From Candidatus Muproteobacteria bacterium RBG_16_65_34 (lineage in GTDB: Bacteria; Pseudomonadota; Gammaproteobacteria; Acidiferrobacterales; Sulfurifustaceae), in assembly GCA_001785115.1 (NCBI GenBank), contig MFSU01000028.1:1-32282 (forward strand): a stretch of DNA of 32,282 nt, written 5' to 3'. This document shows, piece after piece, positions 3,597 through 12,462 of the stretch. The notes beneath the pieces are model-generated. The model was not told the origin of the DNA. It saw only the letters and a program-made list of their open reading frames with translations, and did no database searches. The position numbers and the translations under genes are program-made. Each line of letters opens with the position of its first letter. Within the stretch, counting starts at the first letter, position 1.

Positions 3597-4100
3597 TTAG
3601 GGCTTGGCTTCCTTGTCCTTTTCCGCGGCCTCGGGATTGGGGTAGCCCGCCTGATCGAGCTCGCCGTCGAGCAGCGACTCCATGAAGCCGCGCATCACCT
3701 TCGTCCCGATCAGGATCGTCGGCACGGAGTACCCGCCCGATTTTTGCTTGAGCTCGTCCTGGCTCGTTACGTCCGACTCGACACTCTTTTCGGTGAACGG
3801 GAGCTTGCGCTTCTGAAAGTACATGCGCGCGAGGTCGCAGCCCGAGCACTTGGGAATGGTGTAGAGCACGATGGGGTTCTTCGCGGCGATCTCCTCGAGA
3901 TTGCCCTTGGGCGCGGGCTTCTCGCTCCCGCGGATCGCCTTCTCCTCCACGCGGTATCCCGGCTCGGAGGGCAGGGGCGGCTGGTCGTGATACGACACGT
4001 TGCCGTCCTTGTCCACCCACTTGTAGAGCTTCCCCCCGTGCGCAGCCGGCACGGCGAGCGCCCACAGCGCCGCAACCAGAAATACCGTTTTGCCGCTCAT
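3597..4100 (-). CDS. DUF4124-glutaredoxin-like envelope protein
   Basis: A 167-residue predicted exported protein. Residues 1-22 form a signal peptide ([10 protein letters not shown]). A DUF4124 domain follows ([19 protein letters not shown], about 24-42). The C-terminal half is glutaredoxin-like: [19 protein letters not shown] with the redox pair C85-x-x-C88, then the cis-proline signature VPTILIG and a helix [10 protein letters not shown] thiol-disulfide role in the periplasm is likely from the CxxC and the signal peptide; the partner is unknown. The gene starts three bases after the stop of the SH3 protein gene (TGA-GAC-ATG), so translation is probably coupled. The acidic/lysine tail after residue 155 is outside the fold. 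Confidence 0.88.
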
Positions 4101-4103
4101 GTC

Positions 4104-4694
4104 TCAGACCCTCAGGTACATCCCGCCGAGCTTCCTGCGGGTGCGCTCGCGTAACCACACGATCCCCGCCCAGAACCCTGCTCCCAGCATAGCAAAGGAA
4201 AACACGAGCCAGCCCCAACTGAAACCCGATGCGCCCTCCTCCTGCACTTCCGGCGCCGGGCCGGCGGGCGGGTTCGCCTCCGTCGCCGCGGGCTTTTCGT
4301 TCGGCTTTTTGGCGAGCTCGCCGGCGCGCGCGGTCGCCTGCGCCGCCGCGGCCTCCGCCTTCTTGAGTTGCGCCTGCGTCTCGGCGAGCTGGGCTTTGGC
4401 CTTGTTCAATTCATCCTGAAGCCGCGCAACTTGGATGCGCGCCGGCACTTCCGCGGAGATGAATCGCGTCTCGACCCAACCTTCGACGCCGGCCTTGTCG
4501 CGCACGCGCGCCCACGCCCCGACGCGCTCGAGCACCTCGAGCGGCGCGGCCGGATCGAGCGGCTTCACGACGGTGCCGCCCTCACCTTGGGCGCTTTTGA
4601 GCGCCACATTCGGCTGCTCGGCGACATAGCCGGTTTCCGCGTAGGCCGCCGGCACGAACCCAACGAGCGACAGCAACAGCACGATTTTCTTCAT
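4104..4694 (-). CDS. SH3 domain, coiled-coil, C-terminally anchored membrane protein (TIGR04211-like)
   Basis: A 196-residue protein with a signal peptide ([20 protein letters not shown]). A bacterial SH3-like domain follows (about 20-80: [35 protein letters not shown]). An Ala/Gln/Lys-rich coiled coil spans about 88-125, then a Pro/Ala linker. One transmembrane helix ([21 protein letters not shown]) is followed by a basic tail [10 protein letters not shown]. This order matches TIGR04211 proteins, thought to be periplasmic proteins anchored by the C-terminus. Their function is poorly known, though SH3 domains of this type often contact peptidoglycan. The start is 13 bp downstream of prlC, and its GAGGG ribosome site overlaps the prlC stop, which supports co-transcription. 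Confidence 0.85.
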
Positions 4695-4707: not shown

Positions 4708-6759
4708 TCAGGCGCTGAGCCCGGAATGACGCAGCAAGGCGTCGATCGTCGGCCTGCGGCCGCGGAACGCGACGAACAGCTCCATCGGCTCGCGCACGCC
4801 CCCCTGCTCCAGAATATGTCCCAGAAATTCGAGCCCGGTCGCGCGATCGAAGATGCCGTTCTCCTCGAACTTCGAGAACGCGTCCGCCGACAGCACCTCG
4901 GCCCACTTGTAGCTATAGTAACCGGCGGCATAGCCGCCGGCGAAGACATGCGTGAAGCTGTGCTGGAAGCGATTATACGCAGGCGGAAACACCACCGCGA
5001 CCTCGCGCCGCACTTGATCGAGCACCTCCTGCACGGACTTTTCCGAGTCCGGGTCGTAGTCCGCGTGCAGGCGCATGTCGAAGAGCGAGAATTCGAGCTG
5101 GCGGACGAACTGCATGCCCGATTGGAAGTTCTTGGCGGCGTACATCTTCCGGTACAGGTCATCCGGGATCGGCGCGCCGTTCTGGTAATGTCCGGAGACC
5201 AGGTTCAGCGCCGCGCGCTCCCAGCACCAGTTCTCCATGAACTGCGAGGGTAACTCGACGGCGTCCCAGGCCACGCCACTGATGCCGGCGACGCCGGTGA
5301 AATCCACGCGCGTGAGCAGGTGGTGCAGTCCGTGGCCGAACTCGTGAAACAGCGTGATCGCCTCATCGTGCGTAAAGAGCGCGGGCCTGCCGTTAACCGG
5401 CGGCGAGAAGTTGCAGGTGAGGTAGGCGACCGGCACCTGCACGCCTTGTTGCGTGCGCTTGCGCGCGATGCAGTCGTCCATCCACGCTCCGTCGCGCTTG
5501 TTGGCGCGCGCGTAGAGGTCCAGGTAGAAGCGCCCGCGCACCTCGCCGGCGTTGTCGCGGATCTCGTAGAACCGCACGTCGGGATGCCAGGTCTCGACGC
5601 CCTTCACCTCGGCGATTGTCAGGCCGTAAAGCCGCTCCACCACCGCGAACATGCCGGGCACGACCCTGGTCTCGGGAAGATACGGCCGCACGTCCTCTTG
5701 CGAAAAGCGGTACTTTGCCTGCTGGAGTTTTTCCGAGTAGTACGCAAGATCCCAGGCCTCCAGTCGCTCGACGCCGTGGGTCTCGCGCGCGAAACGTTCG
5801 AGCTCCTCGTAGTCCTTCCGGCCCGCGGGCCGGGCGCGCGCGGCGAGGTCGTTCAGGAAGTCCGTCACCTCCGACACGGTCTTGGCCATGCGCGTCTGCA
5901 ACGCGTACTCGGCATAGTTTGCGAACCCGAGCAGACCCGCGGCCTCCCGGCGCAGCCTGAGAATCCGCGCCATCAACTCGCTGTTGTCCCATTTGCCCGC
6001 ATTCGGTCCTTGGTCACTCGCGCGCGTGACATAGGCCTGGTACATGCTCTGGCGCAGGTCGCGGCGGTCGGCATAGGTCATGAAGGCGATAAACGACGGG
6101 CCTTCCAGCGTGAAGCGCCAGCCGCCGAGGTTTTTTTCCTGCGCCGCCTGGCGCGCCATGGCGCGCGCGGTCTCGGGCAGGCCCGCGAGGTCGTTCTCAT
6201 CCGAGAGACGCAGGTCCCAGGCCTGGGTCGCGTCGAGCACGTTCTCCGAGAACTTGCTCGTGAGCGTCACAAGCTCCTTCTGGAGCTCCTTGAAGCGTGC
6301 CTTTTTATCCGGCGGCAGCTCGGCGCCGGCGAGGCGGAAATCGCGCAGGGTGTTCGCGATGATCTTCTTCTGCGCCGGTGTGAGGCCGGCAAACCCGGGG
6401 CTTTCGGCGATGCGCTTGTATCCTGCAACCAGGCGCTCGTCCTGGGCGAGCTCCGTGTGGTACTCAGAGAGCCTGGGGAGGTTCTCGTTGTACGCCTGGC
6501 GCAGGGCGTCGTTATTCATGACGGCGTTCAGGTGCGACACCGGCGACCACAGGCGCGATAAGCGCTCGTTCATGTCCTCGAGCGGCTGGGCGAAGCTATC
6601 CCAGGCGTATGCGGCCTGCGTGAGCAGCGATTCTTTGAGCGCGCGGTTCTCCGCCAGGACCTGATCGAGCGCCGGGGTGACATGCTCCGGGCGGATGGCG
6701 CCAAAGCGCGGCAGGCCGGCAAAATCGAGCAGGGGATTCTGTGTTTGAGTTTCGGTCAT
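4708..6759 (-). CDS. prlC: Oligopeptidase A (M3 family zinc metallopeptidase)
   Basis: A 683-residue cytoplasmic thimet-type oligopeptidase that cleaves short peptides, including cleaved signal peptides. The zinc motif HEFGH is at residues 472-476 (FHEFGHGLHHLL), with the downstream glutamate in DAVELPSQFMENW. The beginning NPLLDFAGLPRFGAIRPEHV and the end LEFLGHILEQGGVREPMELF are characteristic of PrlC. Length fits the family (about 680). It heads a minus-strand run with the SH3, glutaredoxin-like and xthA genes and is divergent from srkA, with 69 bp between start codons. In E. coli prlC is co-transcribed with rsmJ, so the downstream set here differs. Confidence 0.96.
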   Translation of the reverse strand: MTETQTQNPLLDFAGLPRFGAIRPEHVTPALDQVLAENRALKESLLTQAAYAWDSFAQPLEDMNERLSRLWSPVSHLNAVMNNDALRQAYNENLPRLSEYHTELAQDERLVAGYKRIAESPGFAGLTPAQKKIIANTLRDFRLAGAELPPDKKARFKELQKELVTLTSKFSENVLDATQAWDLRLSDENDLAGLPETARAMARQAAQEKNLGGWRFTLEGPSFIAFMTYADRRDLRQSMYQAYVTRASDQGPNAGKWDNSELMARILRLRREAAGLLGFANYAEYALQTRMAKTVSEVTDFLNDLAARARPAGRKDYEELERFARETHGVERLEAWDLAYYSEKLQQAKYRFSQEDVRPYLPETRVVPGMFAVVERLYGLTIAEVKGVETWHPDVRFYEIRDNAGEVRGRFYLDLYARANKRDGAWMDDCIARKRTQQGVQVPVAYLTCNFSPPVNGRPALFTHDEAITLFHEFGHGLHHLLTRVDFTGVAGISGVAWDAVELPSQFMENWCWERAALNLVSGHYQNGAPIPDDLYRKMYAAKNFQSGMQFVRQLEFSLFDMRLHADYDPDSEKSVQEVLDQVRREVAVVFPPAYNRFQHSFTHVFAGGYAAGYYSYKWAEVLSADAFSKFEENGIFDRATGLEFLGHILEQGGVREPMELFVAFRGRRPTIDALLRHSGLSA

Positions 6760-8485: not shown

Positions 8486-8626
8486 CCCGAAATCGCGGAA
8501 CTCAAAAGAGAGTCGGCTTGACCCGGGGACCCAGGTGACCCAGCGCGTCATTTGCGCGTTCGGCTTGATGTCGAAATCGGCTTAACTTGTAGATTTTTCC
8601 GTTTGCAGGAGTAAACTTGAAATATT

Positions 8627-8640
8627 CGGGGATGTCCCCG
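8627..8640. other. Short hairpin CGGGGATGTCCCCG
   Basis: Six-base arms CGGGGA/TCCCCG with a two-base loop, in the 180-bp gap between the carbonic anhydrase and toxin-antitoxin genes. The surrounding gap also repeats TCGGCTTGA. I have seen similar GGGGACATCCCCG strings beside REP-associated transposases, but no transposase gene is present here. Confidence 0.5.
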
Positions 8641-8665
8641 TGTCACCGCAGCGAGTTTGTCGGCC

Positions 8666-8857
8666 ATGGATAAAAAACTCCTTATCAACGAAATCGAAAA
8701 GATTCCGGAACCGTTCATTGAGGAAATTTACGATTTTGTAAGTTACCTGAAGGCCCGGATCATCAGGGAAAAGTCGGAAACGGCGATCGCCAGCGAGTCG
8801 TCCCTGGGGAAGGATTGGCTCGATGCCAGGGAAGACAGTGCATGGCAAAATTTGTAA
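8666..8857 (+). CDS. DUF2281-like antitoxin
   Basis: A 63-residue acidic protein, MDKKLLINEIEKIPEPFIEE followed by IYDFVSYLKARI. This resembles small DUF2281-type antitoxins: an N-terminal helix pair that ends in YDFVSYLK, then a charged tail with DWL and AWQNL that would wrap the toxin. The ATG at 8666 is preferred over the TTG at 8657; neither has a strong ribosome site. Its end overlaps the start of the downstream PemK/MazF-like gene by 16 bases, the common arrangement for type II toxin-antitoxin operons. It would neutralise that toxin and repress the operon, by analogy. Confidence 0.8.
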   Translation: MDKKLLINEIEKIPEPFIEEIYDFVSYLKARIIREKSETAIASESSLGKDWLDAREDSAWQNL

Positions 8858-9177
8858 GGGGCGATGTTGTCGTTGTTCCTTTTCCGTTTTCCGACCTGAG
8901 TCAGTCCAAGCGACGCCCGGCGCTGGTGGTGGTCGAGTTGGCCGGCGATGACCTTATCCTGTGCCAGATCACCAGCCAACCCATCAAGGATTCCTACGCC
9001 CTCGCCCTCGACGACGCCGACTTTTCCGAGGGCGGCCTCAAGCAACCGAGCAACATTCGCCCCAACCGCCTGTTCACCGCTGACAGCCATATCGTTCTGT
9101 ACCGTACCGGGAAGCTCGGGGCGGATAAGTTCAATCAGGTGGTCGAAAAAATCATCGGGATTGTCCGCGGGAAATAG
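8842..9177 (+). CDS. PemK/MazF-family toxin (endoribonuclease)
   Basis: A 111-residue protein with the MazF/PemK fold signature: RGDVVVVPFPFSDLSQSKRR followed by PALVVV, then DLILCQITSQP and PSNIRPNRLFTADSHIV. Family members cleave mRNA and are held in check by the co-encoded antitoxin. The start at 8842 has AGGGAAG eight bases upstream, inside the antitoxin gene; the ORF track start at 8815 would lack the family alignment. No frameshift or stop is seen, so the toxin looks intact. It sits at the left edge of the accessory island. The presence of srkA (in E. coli an antagonist of MazEF killing) two genes away is probably chance. Confidence 0.88.
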   Translation: MAKFVRGDVVVVPFPFSDLSQSKRRPALVVVELAGDDLILCQITSQPIKDSYALALDDADFSEGGLKQPSNIRPNRLFTADSHIVLYRTGKLGADKFNQVVEKIIGIVRGK

Positions 9178-9500
9178 CGTCTATCGGGCGCTGCAAGACC
9201 CTCGCCGAAGCCCGGGCGCAAGGCCGAGGCCATCTGGGCATCGAGGTCTGACTCGCAAGCCTGACCCTCGTTTTCAGCGATGAGTTTCTAGGTCGCTGCG
9301 GCAACCGCCACGGCAGCACCACGCTCATCGCGGCGTGTGAACCTCGATAAGTGTTTGGTGCAGACACGTTGGTCTGACACCCCAAGATGAGAAACGAAGT
9401 CAGGTCACGAACCGCTTCGGCTGGCGCGCGTGCGACGCGGATGACGGAGTGCCTTCGTCAGGGGTTTTTGTTGCCCTTGACGAGCGGGGGCCTCATAAGT
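9178..9500. other. Gene-free stretch with coding remnants and inverted repeats
   Basis: No intact gene is supported. Two short open stretches look like decayed coding ends (TLAEARAQGRGHLGIEV-stop, and FLGRCGNRHGSTTLIAACEP soon followed by a stop). I cannot assign them. Inverted repeats are present: GCGATGAG/CTCATCGC at 9277/9324, GGTGCAGAC/GGTCTGACACC at 9357-9381, and a 10-bp stem TCGTCAGGGG/CCCTTGACGA at 9455-9483. The last lies just beyond the 3' end of the leftmost cassette gene and may be a degenerate attC stem or a terminator without a clear T tract. Confidence 0.4.
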
Positions 9501-9507
9501 GTTATGC

Positions 9508-10152
9508 CTAGTCCACCCCAATTGGTAGTTTGTAGTTTGCGTTAATTCCAGCAATTCGACGCTTCATCTCTTTAATGCTAAGTGTAGCTGATTCATATTC
9601 CAGTCGATCCGCCCACATTTTCCACAGTCTGAGTAGATTGCTGTGATTAATAGTTGTTGATGACTGCATTTCGATATGCCATGGCAAAATCAATTCTGCG
9701 CATTGGCAATAAGCGCTTCCGGAACCGGAATAACCTACGGATTCGTCCGCGACTCCAGAAACAAAATATAAAGAATACTTTTCAAGCGCATTGATAAATG
9801 GAATTAGTACATCGTAGTGTTCCGCGAGTCGCTCACATTCATTTACACGTTGCTCTTCAGGTAAGTTGACGTGAATTTTGATTGAGTCGTGGGACCTCTC
9901 GTATTCAATAGAATCGAATATGGCCAACCCCTCATCTTCAGCAATCTTCAGCAGTTGGCTGTGTAACGGTATAATTTCCTGAGCAAAGAATTCACTCTGT
10001 TCGACCGCAAGTCGCAATGCATCTCGCTGGGAAGTTATTTTGATATTCTTTTTGGCAACACGGATTTGGATAAGAACAAACATCCCTACTAAGACAAGCA
10101 AAGGTCCTGAAGCAAAATATATAAGCTCAAGAATTTGGCGTATATCATTCAT
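9508..10152 (-). CDS. Cassette-borne membrane-anchored protein of unknown function
   Basis: A 214-residue protein I do not recognise beyond its shape. One N-terminal transmembrane helix (IYFASGPLLVLVGMFVLIQI, about residues 11-30) is followed by a basic segment RVAKKNIKITSQRDALRLAV and a long, mostly helical cytoplasmic part ending in WADRLEYESATLSIKEMKRR. The layout resembles DUF4760-like single-pass proteins, often found near defence genes or in integron cassettes, but this is weak. GGAG six bases before the ATG is a good ribosome site. The stop TAG is immediately followed by GCATAAC. Codon use is far more AT-rich than the neighbours, which supports transfer. Confidence 0.7.
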   Translation of the reverse strand: MNDIRQILELIYFASGPLLVLVGMFVLIQIRVAKKNIKITSQRDALRLAVEQSEFFAQEIIPLHSQLLKIAEDEGLAIFDSIEYERSHDSIKIHVNLPEEQRVNECERLAEHYDVLIPFINALEKYSLYFVSGVADESVGYSGSGSAYCQCAELILPWHIEMQSSTTINHSNLLRLWKMWADRLEYESATLSIKEMKRRIAGINANYKLPIGVD

Positions 10153-10164
10153 TATTTACTCCGG

Positions 10165-10231
10165 GCATAACGTTCCGGTTCAGGCGCGGCGGCGCGTCAG
10201 CGACGACGTCGCCTGGAACCGGGGGTTAGGC
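10165..10231 (-). other. attC recombination site
   Basis: On the minus strand the 67-bp site runs from GCCTAAC (R'') to GTTATGC (R'). The inner arms CCGGTTCCAGGCG and CGCCTGAACCGG pair except for one extra base, the extrahelical base expected of attC bottom strands. A variable GC-rich tip lies between them. R'' supplies the stop codon TAA of the upstream cassette gene (10226-10726). Confidence 0.85.
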
Positions 10232-10726
10232 ATCTTCTGTACCGGGGTATGGGATGCCAAGATCGTTAGCAATGATTTCAAACCCACGCTCATTCTTGTA
10301 TTTCTCCATATCTTTCCCTTTCGTCAAAACCCTCTCCCAGCCCGACACAGCCTTCTGATGGTTTTCTTGGATGAATTTGACGGGAAGCGTGTAGAACTCC
10401 GGTTCAGCAAAACCTTCACGAATTGGTTTTTTCTTGTAGTAATAACCGTTATTCAAGAAAACAACAATGACGTAATCGAAAGCCGAGAACGATTTTTCTT
10501 TAACGGGAAAAGCACGGTCACTATCAGTTTGGTACCGGCTTTTAACTTGCACTCGAATTTGCTCTGCACTCTTTCTGGGGTCTGGATGTATACAGATAAG
10601 ATCATAGCCTTCATTGTTCGGTGGAGCCTTGTACGCAAGGATATTGCGACGCATAAGATGACCAATGACAAGGTGCTCGGCACCAAGCGAGACAACAGGG
10701 TATCGGCGTGCGTCTTTGTTTCCCAT
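10226..10726 (-). CDS. Cassette-borne PD-(D/E)XK-like protein of unknown function
   Basis: A 166-residue protein. The segment NNEGYDLICIHPDP...IRVQVKSRYQ places D42 before a Q60-V-K62 motif, the layout of PD-(D/E)XK nuclease-fold proteins that use Gln at the second position. The N-terminal helix GAEHLVIGHLMRRNI resembles the helix preceding this core in intron-associated and restriction-like members of the fold. The C-terminus (GWERVLTKGKDMEKY, then ERGFEIIANDLGIP) is not recognised. Nuclease activity is an inference from the motif. The stop codon lies inside the attC core (GCCTAAC), so the gene and site form a compact cassette. AT-rich composition marks it as foreign. Confidence 0.72.
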   Translation of the reverse strand: MGNKDARRYPVVSLGAEHLVIGHLMRRNILAYKAPPNNEGYDLICIHPDPRKSAEQIRVQVKSRYQTDSDRAFPVKEKSFSAFDYVIVVFLNNGYYYKKKPIREGFAEPEFYTLPVKFIQENHQKAVSGWERVLTKGKDMEKYKNERGFEIIANDLGIPYPGTEDA

Positions 10727-10742
10727 GCGATATCTTTAAGAT

Positions 10743-10749
10743 GCCTAAC
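10743..10749 (-). other. Cassette junction GTTAGGC
   Basis: On the minus strand GTTAGGC stands 17 bases before the start codon of the 166-residue cassette gene, the expected position of the R' half-site left by the preceding attC or attI. No partner R'' site or attC stem is found within 150 bp to the right, so the array may have entered a secondary site or lost its neighbour. Confidence 0.5.
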
Positions 10750-10784
10750 TTATTAGACCGCGTAGAAACTCATGGAAACCGTTG

Positions 10785-10814
10785 CCAGATATAGCACCAG
10801 GTTTCTATATCTGG
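10785..10814. repeat. Perfect 10-bp inverted repeat CCAGATATAG/CTATATCTGG
   Basis: CCAGATATAG at 10785-10794 and CTATATCTGG at 10805-10814 with a 10-base loop. GGTTTC/GAAACC pairs overlap it. It lies between the cassette junction and the decayed gene at 10838-11204. Confidence 0.7.
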
Positions 10815-10837
10815 AAACCAGATTCCACATATGTAAC

Positions 10838-11204
10838 CCTCGTCGCTTCACGATGCGGTAGCCAAGCCCGAGGGCGCGCACCCTTTCGTGAGGCAGCCGC
10901 CAGAGCTTTTCCGCGGGCGACCACTGCCCGCCGCAGCCGTGCGAACTTTCTCGCGCAGCTCGCGCTCGCGATAGAAGACGCGGACGCCGACCGTGCGCGG
11001 AGTTTTTTGGCGCCGGTACTTCCTCGACGGCGGGCTCGGGCGGCGGACTTGAGCTCGTTTCCTCGACGATCAGCTCGACGGTCTTGTAGCGCTTCTTCGC
11101 CTCGGTATCGCAGCGGTAACGGACGCACCGAGTCGCGAGCCGTAGGGTTGCAGCAGTCGCTGCGTGCCCTTCTGACCCGGACGGCGGACGGCCAAGTCGT
11201 GCAT
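10838..11204 (-). pseudogene. Frameshifted conserved hypothetical gene (MHDLxVRRPGQKGT family)
   Basis: On the minus strand the piece starts MHDLAVRRPGQKGTQRLLQP and reads to YGSRL. It then shifts frame to CVRYRCDTEAKKRYKTVELI-VEE, shifts again for VGVRVFYRERELREKVRTAA, returns for GGQWSPAEKLWRLPHERVRA-LGL, and shifts once more for GYRIVKRRG. Put together this is a small conserved hypothetical protein that I recall from many environmental proteobacterial genomes, often near mobile elements. Its function is unknown. At least three frameshifts make it a pseudogene. The 10750-11622 gap contains no intact gene. Confidence 0.75.
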
Positions 11205-11522
11205 GACGCTCCCTCGCTTGTTGTTGTTCGCTCGGCGCGTGTCAGCTTACGCCTGGGGGCCGGATTTCGGCAAGCTTGAGGGTCGTGCCGCCGGCGCCTC
11301 GTAGGCGAGCAGGACACCGAGGGCGGCCGAAGCGGGAGTGAGGTTTTGTTTTTCCGGTCCCCGTAGCGCACGCCGAGTATCGCAGCCCCACCGGGAGCAT
11401 TTAAGCGAGTATTGATCGAGCCCGAGGCGCGTTGTTGAGCGCCCGGCGAGTTACGCAGCGCCCGATGGGGCGAGAAACGCAGGACACCGCGCTGAAAGCG
11501 CGGCGCGCGCTCCGGGGCGGAT

Positions 11523-11588
11523 TTCTTTTGGTGACTTTTCTTTCGGCCGAACAAAGAAAAGTCGCCTGCCGCGGGTCAGCCACCCGCA
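11523..11588 (-). repeat. Dispersed palindromic repeat (TTTTCTTT / AAAGAAAA type), copy 1
   Basis: The core stem pairs GGTGACTTTTCTTT with AAAGAAAAGTCGCC (11530-11566). The flank reads TTGCGGGTGGCTGACCCGCG on the minus strand. The same flank and palindrome recur in inverted orientation at 32219-32282. The frame across it reads GRKKSHQKKS, a phrase common in spurious ORFs of many proteobacterial genomes. The repeat may extend further left, to about 11230, but I have no second copy in the window to check this. Confidence 0.8.
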
Positions 11589-11622
11589 ATTACAAAGCGC
11601 GGCCGCGGGCCGCCCGAAAAAC

Positions 11623-12462
11623 TTATCCTCCTTTCCGCAACGCCGCGATCACCGACTTCGTCTCCGGCCGCACGCCGTGCCAGACGAGATACGACTCGGC
11701 GGCCTGCTCGACGAGCATCCCGAGGCCGTCGGCGATGCGCTCCGCGCCGTGGAGCGCGGCCCAGTCCATGAACGGCGTGGCCTTGTCGCCGTACATCATG
11801 TCATAGGCGAGCGCGTGGTTGGCGAAGAGGTTTTCGGGCAGCGGCGGGACCTCGCCCTTCAGGCTCGCCGCGGTGCCGTTGATGACGATATCGAAGCGCT
11901 TGCCTTTGAGCTCGTTGAAGCCGCAGGCCTCGATCCTGCCGAAGTGCGCGAACTCCTCGGCCAGTTCCTTGCCCTTAGACACCGTGCGGTTGGCGATTAC
12001 GAGCAGCGCCGGGTGGTGTTTGAGAAGCGGCGCGAGCACGCCGCGCACCGCCCCGCCGGCGCCGAGCACGAGCACCTTCTTGTCCTTGATCGCGACTTCC
12101 AGATTCTTGGTGAGGTCGTGCACCAGCCCGGCGCCGTCGGTGTTGTCGCCGAAGACCGTGCCGTCGGGCTCGAAGCGGATGGTGTTGACTGCGCCGGCGA
12201 GCTTGGCGCGGTCGCTCAGGTGATCGGCGAGCCGGAAAGCGTCGAGCTTGAACGGCACGGTGACGTTCAAACCGCGCCCGCCCGCGGCGCGGAACTGCGC
12301 GAGGGCCTGGGCAAATCCGCCCGGATCGACCTCGATCGCGGTGTATTCGATGCGGTGCTTGAACTGATGGGCGAAGAGCGTGTGGATGCGCGGCGACTTG
12401 CTGTGGGCCACCGGGCTGCCCATCACGGCGAACTGAAGCGACGCAGATTCGATATCGGCCAT
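11623..12462 (-). CDS. aroE: Shikimate dehydrogenase
   Basis: A 279-residue NADP-dependent enzyme reducing 3-dehydroshikimate to shikimate in aromatic amino acid biosynthesis. The N-terminal substrate domain reads FAVMGSPVAHSKSPRIHTLF. Catalytic residues are K72 (NVTVPFK) and D106 (GDNTDG). The dinucleotide fold follows with LVLGAGGAVRGVLAPL and NRTVSKG (NRTxxK for NADP). The C-terminus has DMMYGDKATPF and GLGMLVEQAAESYLVWHG. Length is typical. The gene lies 46 bp downstream of an alpha/beta hydrolase on the same strand and may be co-transcribed with it. Confidence 0.96.
   Translation of the reverse strand: MADIESASLQFAVMGSPVAHSKSPRIHTLFAHQFKHRIEYTAIEVDPGGFAQALAQFRAAGGRGLNVTVPFKLDAFRLADHLSDRAKLAGAVNTIRFEPDGTVFGDNTDGAGLVHDLTKNLEVAIKDKKVLVLGAGGAVRGVLAPLLKHHPALLVIANRTVSKGKELAEEFAHFGRIEACGFNELKGKRFDIVINGTAASLKGEVPPLPENLFANHALAYDMMYGDKATPFMDWAALHGAERIADGLGMLVEQAAESYLVWHGVRPETKSVIAALRKGG

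Follow-up and report, generated by a model that had tools for sequence, protein, structure and literature searches.

Mrr-type restriction enzymes carry a QxK variant of the PD-(D/E)XK nuclease motif, and the archaeal Holliday junction resolvase Hjc has a glutamate on its N-terminal helix. In the DREN domain, the catalytic residues are D41 on strand β2 and Q60 and K62 on strand β3 (PMC12205087), and another DUF4365 protein has Q62 and K64 (PMC10810196). Integrons, for their part, are recognised stores of phage-defence genes (PMC12409362). We analyzed a 32,282-nt stretch of DNA from Candidatus Muproteobacteria bacterium RBG_16_65_34 (hereafter, the window), in which a gene cassette encodes a small protein with a comparable active site. 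The most likely role of this protein, which we regard as a free-standing, metal-dependent PD-(D/E)XK nuclease, horizontally mobile as a single gene and cassette-borne in this genome, is anti-phage or anti-plasmid defence; the reading as a whole is assigned a rough probability of 0.52. The fold and the motif are well supported, whereas the role in defence is inferred, as are the activity as a nuclease, the target and the oligomeric state. The relevant features of the window are as follows.

10226–10726, minus strand: cassette gene for a 166-aa PD-(D/E)XK-type nuclease (E17, D42, Q60, K62), based on the ORF, the homologue alignment and the predicted fold
10165–10231, minus strand: attC of the nuclease cassette, 67 nt, with boxes R″ (GCCTAAC) and R′ (GTTATGC), from attC search and folding
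10171–10748, minus strand: probable extent of the mobile cassette, read from the sequence with a canonical G^TT crossover assumed
10743–10749, minus strand: putative upstream core-site box GTTAGGC, the other boundary of the cassette
9508–10152, minus strand: second cassette ORF, 214 aa, co-oriented with the nuclease cassette, without a family match
9501–9507, minus strand: GCATAAC box directly 3′ of the stop codon of the second ORF, a putative truncated attC

The nuclease gene is an intact ORF running from ATG to TAA, and the span and residue numbering given in the sequence-only reading (NNEGYD42LI followed by VQ60VK62SR) were exact. A longer ORF on the plus strand that spans the cassette gene (10040–10756, TTG start) is an unsupported overlap, because the alignment with 21 full-length homologues is in the frame of the minus strand. 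The GC content at third codon positions is 46% in the cassette gene vs 85% and 90% in the neighboring core genes, identified by eye as a gamma-carbonic-anhydrase-like gene and aroE, which indicates a recent foreign origin. The protein is under purifying selection, with dN of 0.12 and saturated dS between the cassette gene and its Nitrospira homologue L001, and dN of 0.06 and dS of 0.36 between L001 and L002.

The word “cassette” in the sequence-only reading is borne out by the attC located directly at the 3′ end of the gene, such that the stop codon TAA sits within the left box R″. Either strand of the site can fold, with energies between −33.0 and −36.8 kcal/mol, and the site is the sole match in the window at the thresholds used; when the surrounding 1.7 kb was dinucleotide-shuffled 200 times, a single shuffle yielded any match. 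The locus thereby combines a single ORF with an attC carrying both boxes, the hallmark of integron gene cassettes. The ends of the cassette were placed at the crossover points in the upstream GTTAGGC box and in the R′ box of the attC. No R″ partner was found for the upstream box, which would therefore represent an attI- or attG-like junction or the remainder of a lost attC. An attC-like fold upstream of the cassette was rejected because its sequence, judged by eye, is the end of the coding region of a decayed gene. A 10-bp perfect inverted repeat, CCAGATATAG...CTATATCTGG (10740–10870, minus strand), is found immediately upstream of the boundary of the cassette. The segment 10860–11225 (minus strand), ending just upstream of the cassettes, appears to be the frame-disrupted remnant of a small gene, which we take to resemble a short protein often encoded close to insertion elements.

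The product of the second ORF has an apparent N-terminal membrane segment, as judged by eye, and searches of family libraries and plasmids returned no convincing match to it; the mirror half of the putative attC behind this ORF is absent. Also beside the cassettes, on the plus strand (8657–9177), is an overlapping gene pair with the appearance, by eye, of an antitoxin and a MazF/PemK-like toxin. No intI was found near the cassettes; the genome, which is 75% complete, has integrase_gron matches on different contigs only, and these score far short of the cut-off. Given that no integron integrase in this genome exceeds the curated cut-off, the cassettes would constitute a short remnant lacking an integrase, or else would have been inserted apart from any integron. 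No convincing attC was detected beside any of the homologues scanned; thus, among these loci, the cassette status is peculiar to the copy in the window.

Searches of Pfam, NCBIfam, PHROG and PADLOC produced no model above the cut-off. In the PDB, the single sequence retrieved nothing above the cut-off, and the profile retrieved only chance matches to cytochrome b5. The sole near miss in Pfam was PDDEXK_5 (PF11645; 15.3 bits vs a cut-off of 26.1, E = 0.022), which was also sub-threshold in 7 of 22 family members; there was no match to Mrr_N or Mrr_cat. The protein displays the D...QxKS active site of DUF4365/DREN, with the catalytic D at the second strand and QxK on the third strand of the same core fold and with nearly coincident numbering (D41/Q60/K62 in DREN vs D42/Q60/K62 here). 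However, DREN forms part of a fusion with APAZ and cooperates with a short Argonaute, whereas the cassette nuclease is a 166-aa single protein with neither an APAZ fusion nor an adjacent short Argonaute. Membership in DUF4365 (PF14280), for which there is no Pfam call either, was rejected by profile-profile comparison: alignment with eight DUF4365 sequences using hhalign fell short of significance, covered 13 columns (E = 0.079) and encompassed the VQxKS stretch alone. The suggestion of a new subfamily made from the sequence therefore stands in one part, namely that no curated model claims the protein, but the glutamine at this position was already known: since DREN and DUF4365 proteins likewise use Gln and Lys, Gln is an established variant. 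This is ordinary biology in kind, from an uncatalogued family whose members, for want of a curated model, remain annotated as hypothetical proteins.

The AlphaFold2 model, built from an alignment of 22 sequences, has a mean pLDDT of 82.7 and a pTM of 0.80. The predicted N-terminal half comprises, in order, a helix (residues 13–26), three strands (30–33, 43–46 and 57–65), a helix (77–82) and a strand (85–91), and the C-terminal half comprises a strand (110–115), a helix (116–121), two short strands and a helix (145–155). E17 lies on the first helix, in a position which we take to correspond to that of the helix glutamate of Hjc-type enzymes, D42 just ahead of the second strand, and Q60 and K62 on the third, in keeping with the superfamily, in which the second strand bears a conserved acidic residue and the third bears (D/E/Q)xK. 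Structural comparison with the PDB using Foldseek retrieved, in order, Eco15I/NhoI, I-Ssp6803I, Hjc, the DREN domain of SPARDA and EcoRV; all leading matches are PD-(D/E)XK nucleases. The PD-(D/E)XK-like core originally proposed, along with a structure prediction as the means to check it, is thus supported by the nuclease fold that the prediction returned, its pTM, the top matches and the conserved D42, Q60 and K62, whose secondary-structure positions would fit a shared site. With TM-scores of approximately 0.5 and identities of 10–20%, the kinship with these enzymes is at the level of fold rather than family.

E17, D42 and Q60 are invariant in the 21 full-length homologues (56–84% identity), and 21 of the 22 sequences retain K62. 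In a wider set reaching down to 34% identity, E17, D42, Q60, V61, K62, S63 and R64 are invariant. Outside the catalytic motif, D84, N92, G94, W130 and L156 do not vary. Conservation of this kind makes it very improbable that the family consists of catalytically dead DNA-binding or regulatory proteins on the same fold, an interpretation for which the Arg found at the position of K62 in L002 would speak. This homologue (3656–4162), with VQVRSR in place of the catalytic Lys motif, may well be a naturally inactive variant.

Each of the leading structural relatives resembles the cassette protein in part. The methylation-dependent restriction enzyme domain of NhoI/Eco15I, the best match (PDB 8q5o, E = 1.6e-4), is small and of similar length, but identity is at most 20% and the cassette protein has no recognised methyl-reader domain. 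Hjc shares the fold at 10–16% identity, and its presence among the top matches could be taken to mean that the protein is an accessory DNA repair or recombination enzyme, either an Hjc-like junction resolvase or a mismatch nicking enzyme; one homologue (L005) is indeed near a UmuC-type polymerase gene. We consider this rather improbable, given that the cassette family is accessory, rare and patchy in every group examined, unlike repair genes, and is not consistently associated with recombination genes. I-Ssp6803I (PDB 2ost), a homing endonuclease of the same fold and size, is the second-best match, and it is due to this proximity in fold that the main rival to a defence role is a selfish, free-standing homing endonuclease, which would cleave a specific site in empty alleles and be copied in by repair. 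The near-hit to PDDEXK_5, the only one in Pfam, points in the same direction. Nevertheless, identity to I-Ssp6803I is 14% at a TM-score of approximately 0.5, the cassette protein has an additional conserved C-terminal half (residues 110–155), and it is not associated with an intron: an Rfam search of positions 8500–11700 revealed neither a group I intron nor any other match.

The distribution of the family bears on the same question. A contig scan of genomes identified 23 loci with relatives, the nearest being two Nitrospira-related metagenome-assembled genomes (MAGs; 85 and 80% identity), whereas most others are 55–69% identical and come from MAGs labeled Thiohalocapsa, Verrucomicrobiales/Limisphaerales, Victivallales, Leptospirales, Deltaproteobacteria, Saprospiraceae, Planctomycetota, Zixiibacteriota, Bryobacteraceae and Chloroflexi. 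Homologues with 55–85% identity thus occur sporadically in about ten phyla, with one copy per genome except for G1063, which has an additional C-terminal fragment 3 kb away. The gene is present in 2 of 60 relatives (counting its own genome and one weak match), in 3 of 399 genomes of the same phylum, two of these hits being remote or fragmentary, and, in two further whole-phylum samples, in 5 of 294 genomes and in 3 of 301. No match was found among phage records, and plasmids provided two distant matches only. The distant and shorter relatives L029, on a Pseudoalteromonas megaplasmid, and L065, between sucB- and lpd-like genes, share 34% identity with the cassette protein and retain E17, D42, Q60, K62, S63, R64, N92, G94 and W130; relatives of the L029 type possibly form a wider sister family. 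L029 (5968–6402; 34–37% identity) is located among small hypothetical genes, near a TniB-like transposition gene. On a viral contig, the match to an 85% identical homologue (L032, 2443–2781) stops at about residue 101, and genes resembling those for phage lysis come next; it looks as though the end of a prophage were located inside the homologue gene. Two Pirellula MAGs (L020 and L023, near 5000–5540) share one locus where the homologue is next to genes of type I restriction; it is intact in one but truncated after approximately 57 residues in the other.

A single gene inserted at many different intergenic places is what homing might produce, as is the pattern in Nitrospira, where two species carry the gene at the same place beside hemD whereas most close relatives are empty. 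Specifically, the hemD-type gene (identified by eye) was recovered from most Nitrospira genomes sampled, the insert adjoins it in only 2 of the loci recovered, and it is missing from species with a 92–93% identical hemD-type gene. However, the insertion places differ between phyla, the gene is not nested within conserved genes, and a search of the insertion points revealed neither target-site repeats nor a common flanking motif. The cassette provides an alternative vehicle that requires no homing, and defence neighbors are frequent. On balance, homing appears unlikely, and the neighborhood evidence favours defence over a selfish function.

In at least 6 of about 30 loci, the surroundings include defence genes, among them genes of DISARM, type I and type IV systems, and in three the spacing is within 5 bp or the genes overlap. 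The homologue is followed directly downstream by DrmD and DrmMI (L003), has DrmB nearby (L007), adjoins the type I methylase gene hsdM (L020) or overlaps the gene for ZacA (DUF6361; L070). In another locus (L009), PDC-S11 is upstream and an SRA-domain protein matching type IV restriction is encoded 3 bp downstream. Further neighbors include an Mrr gene 4 bp away (L076), an HNH_2 restriction-type gene 41 bp away (L072) and a TIR protein (L015). As a control, 217 ORFs were taken from the starts of about 47 arbitrarily chosen contigs, which belong almost entirely to these same genomes; genes of DISARM, restriction-modification and type IV systems were absent from their strong matches. Because the controls did contain other defence-library matches (SspF/G/H, MzaA, AbiEii and ShosA), the enrichment is modest and suggestive. 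Counting against the defence interpretation, several loci have housekeeping neighbors only (hemD, sucB-lpd, fabF-deoA), and the copy in the window adjoins an uncharacterised cassette.

Each defence locus has a different partner, so that no defined system emerges, and no neighbor is conserved across the 27 loci inspected; the gene is therefore a unit by itself. Accordingly, we deem it highly doubtful that the nuclease forms a two-gene unit, as its effector or toxin, with the product of 9508–10152 or another unrecognised protein, even though the two cassettes are adjacent and co-oriented and DREN-type nucleases are activated effectors in larger systems; the gene usually occurs alone. Rather, its occurrence as single copies in unrelated bacteria, often beside anti-phage genes, suggests that it is probably a solo defence nuclease.

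As a defence nuclease, the enzyme, probably a dimer or tetramer, might cut incoming DNA or become active during infection, with D42 and Q60 holding Mg2+ and K62 serving catalysis. It would add the cutting power of a lone restriction-like nuclease to a host defence locus or act alone. More specifically, albeit tentatively, the family might be a self-sufficient one-gene defence family with a DREN-like active site and its own C-terminal half as a sensor or oligomerisation module, which joins loci of the DISARM, type I, type IV or ZacA kind and is also carried by itself on integron cassettes across many phyla; that all these attributes hold together is unlikely. If protective, the nuclease cassette would be an environmental example of defence functions being stored in integron cassettes, as already found elsewhere. 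If protective alone, the gene would represent a compact, portable anti-phage gene, and D84, N92, G94, W130 and L156 would point to how a lone nuclease discriminates self from foreign DNA.
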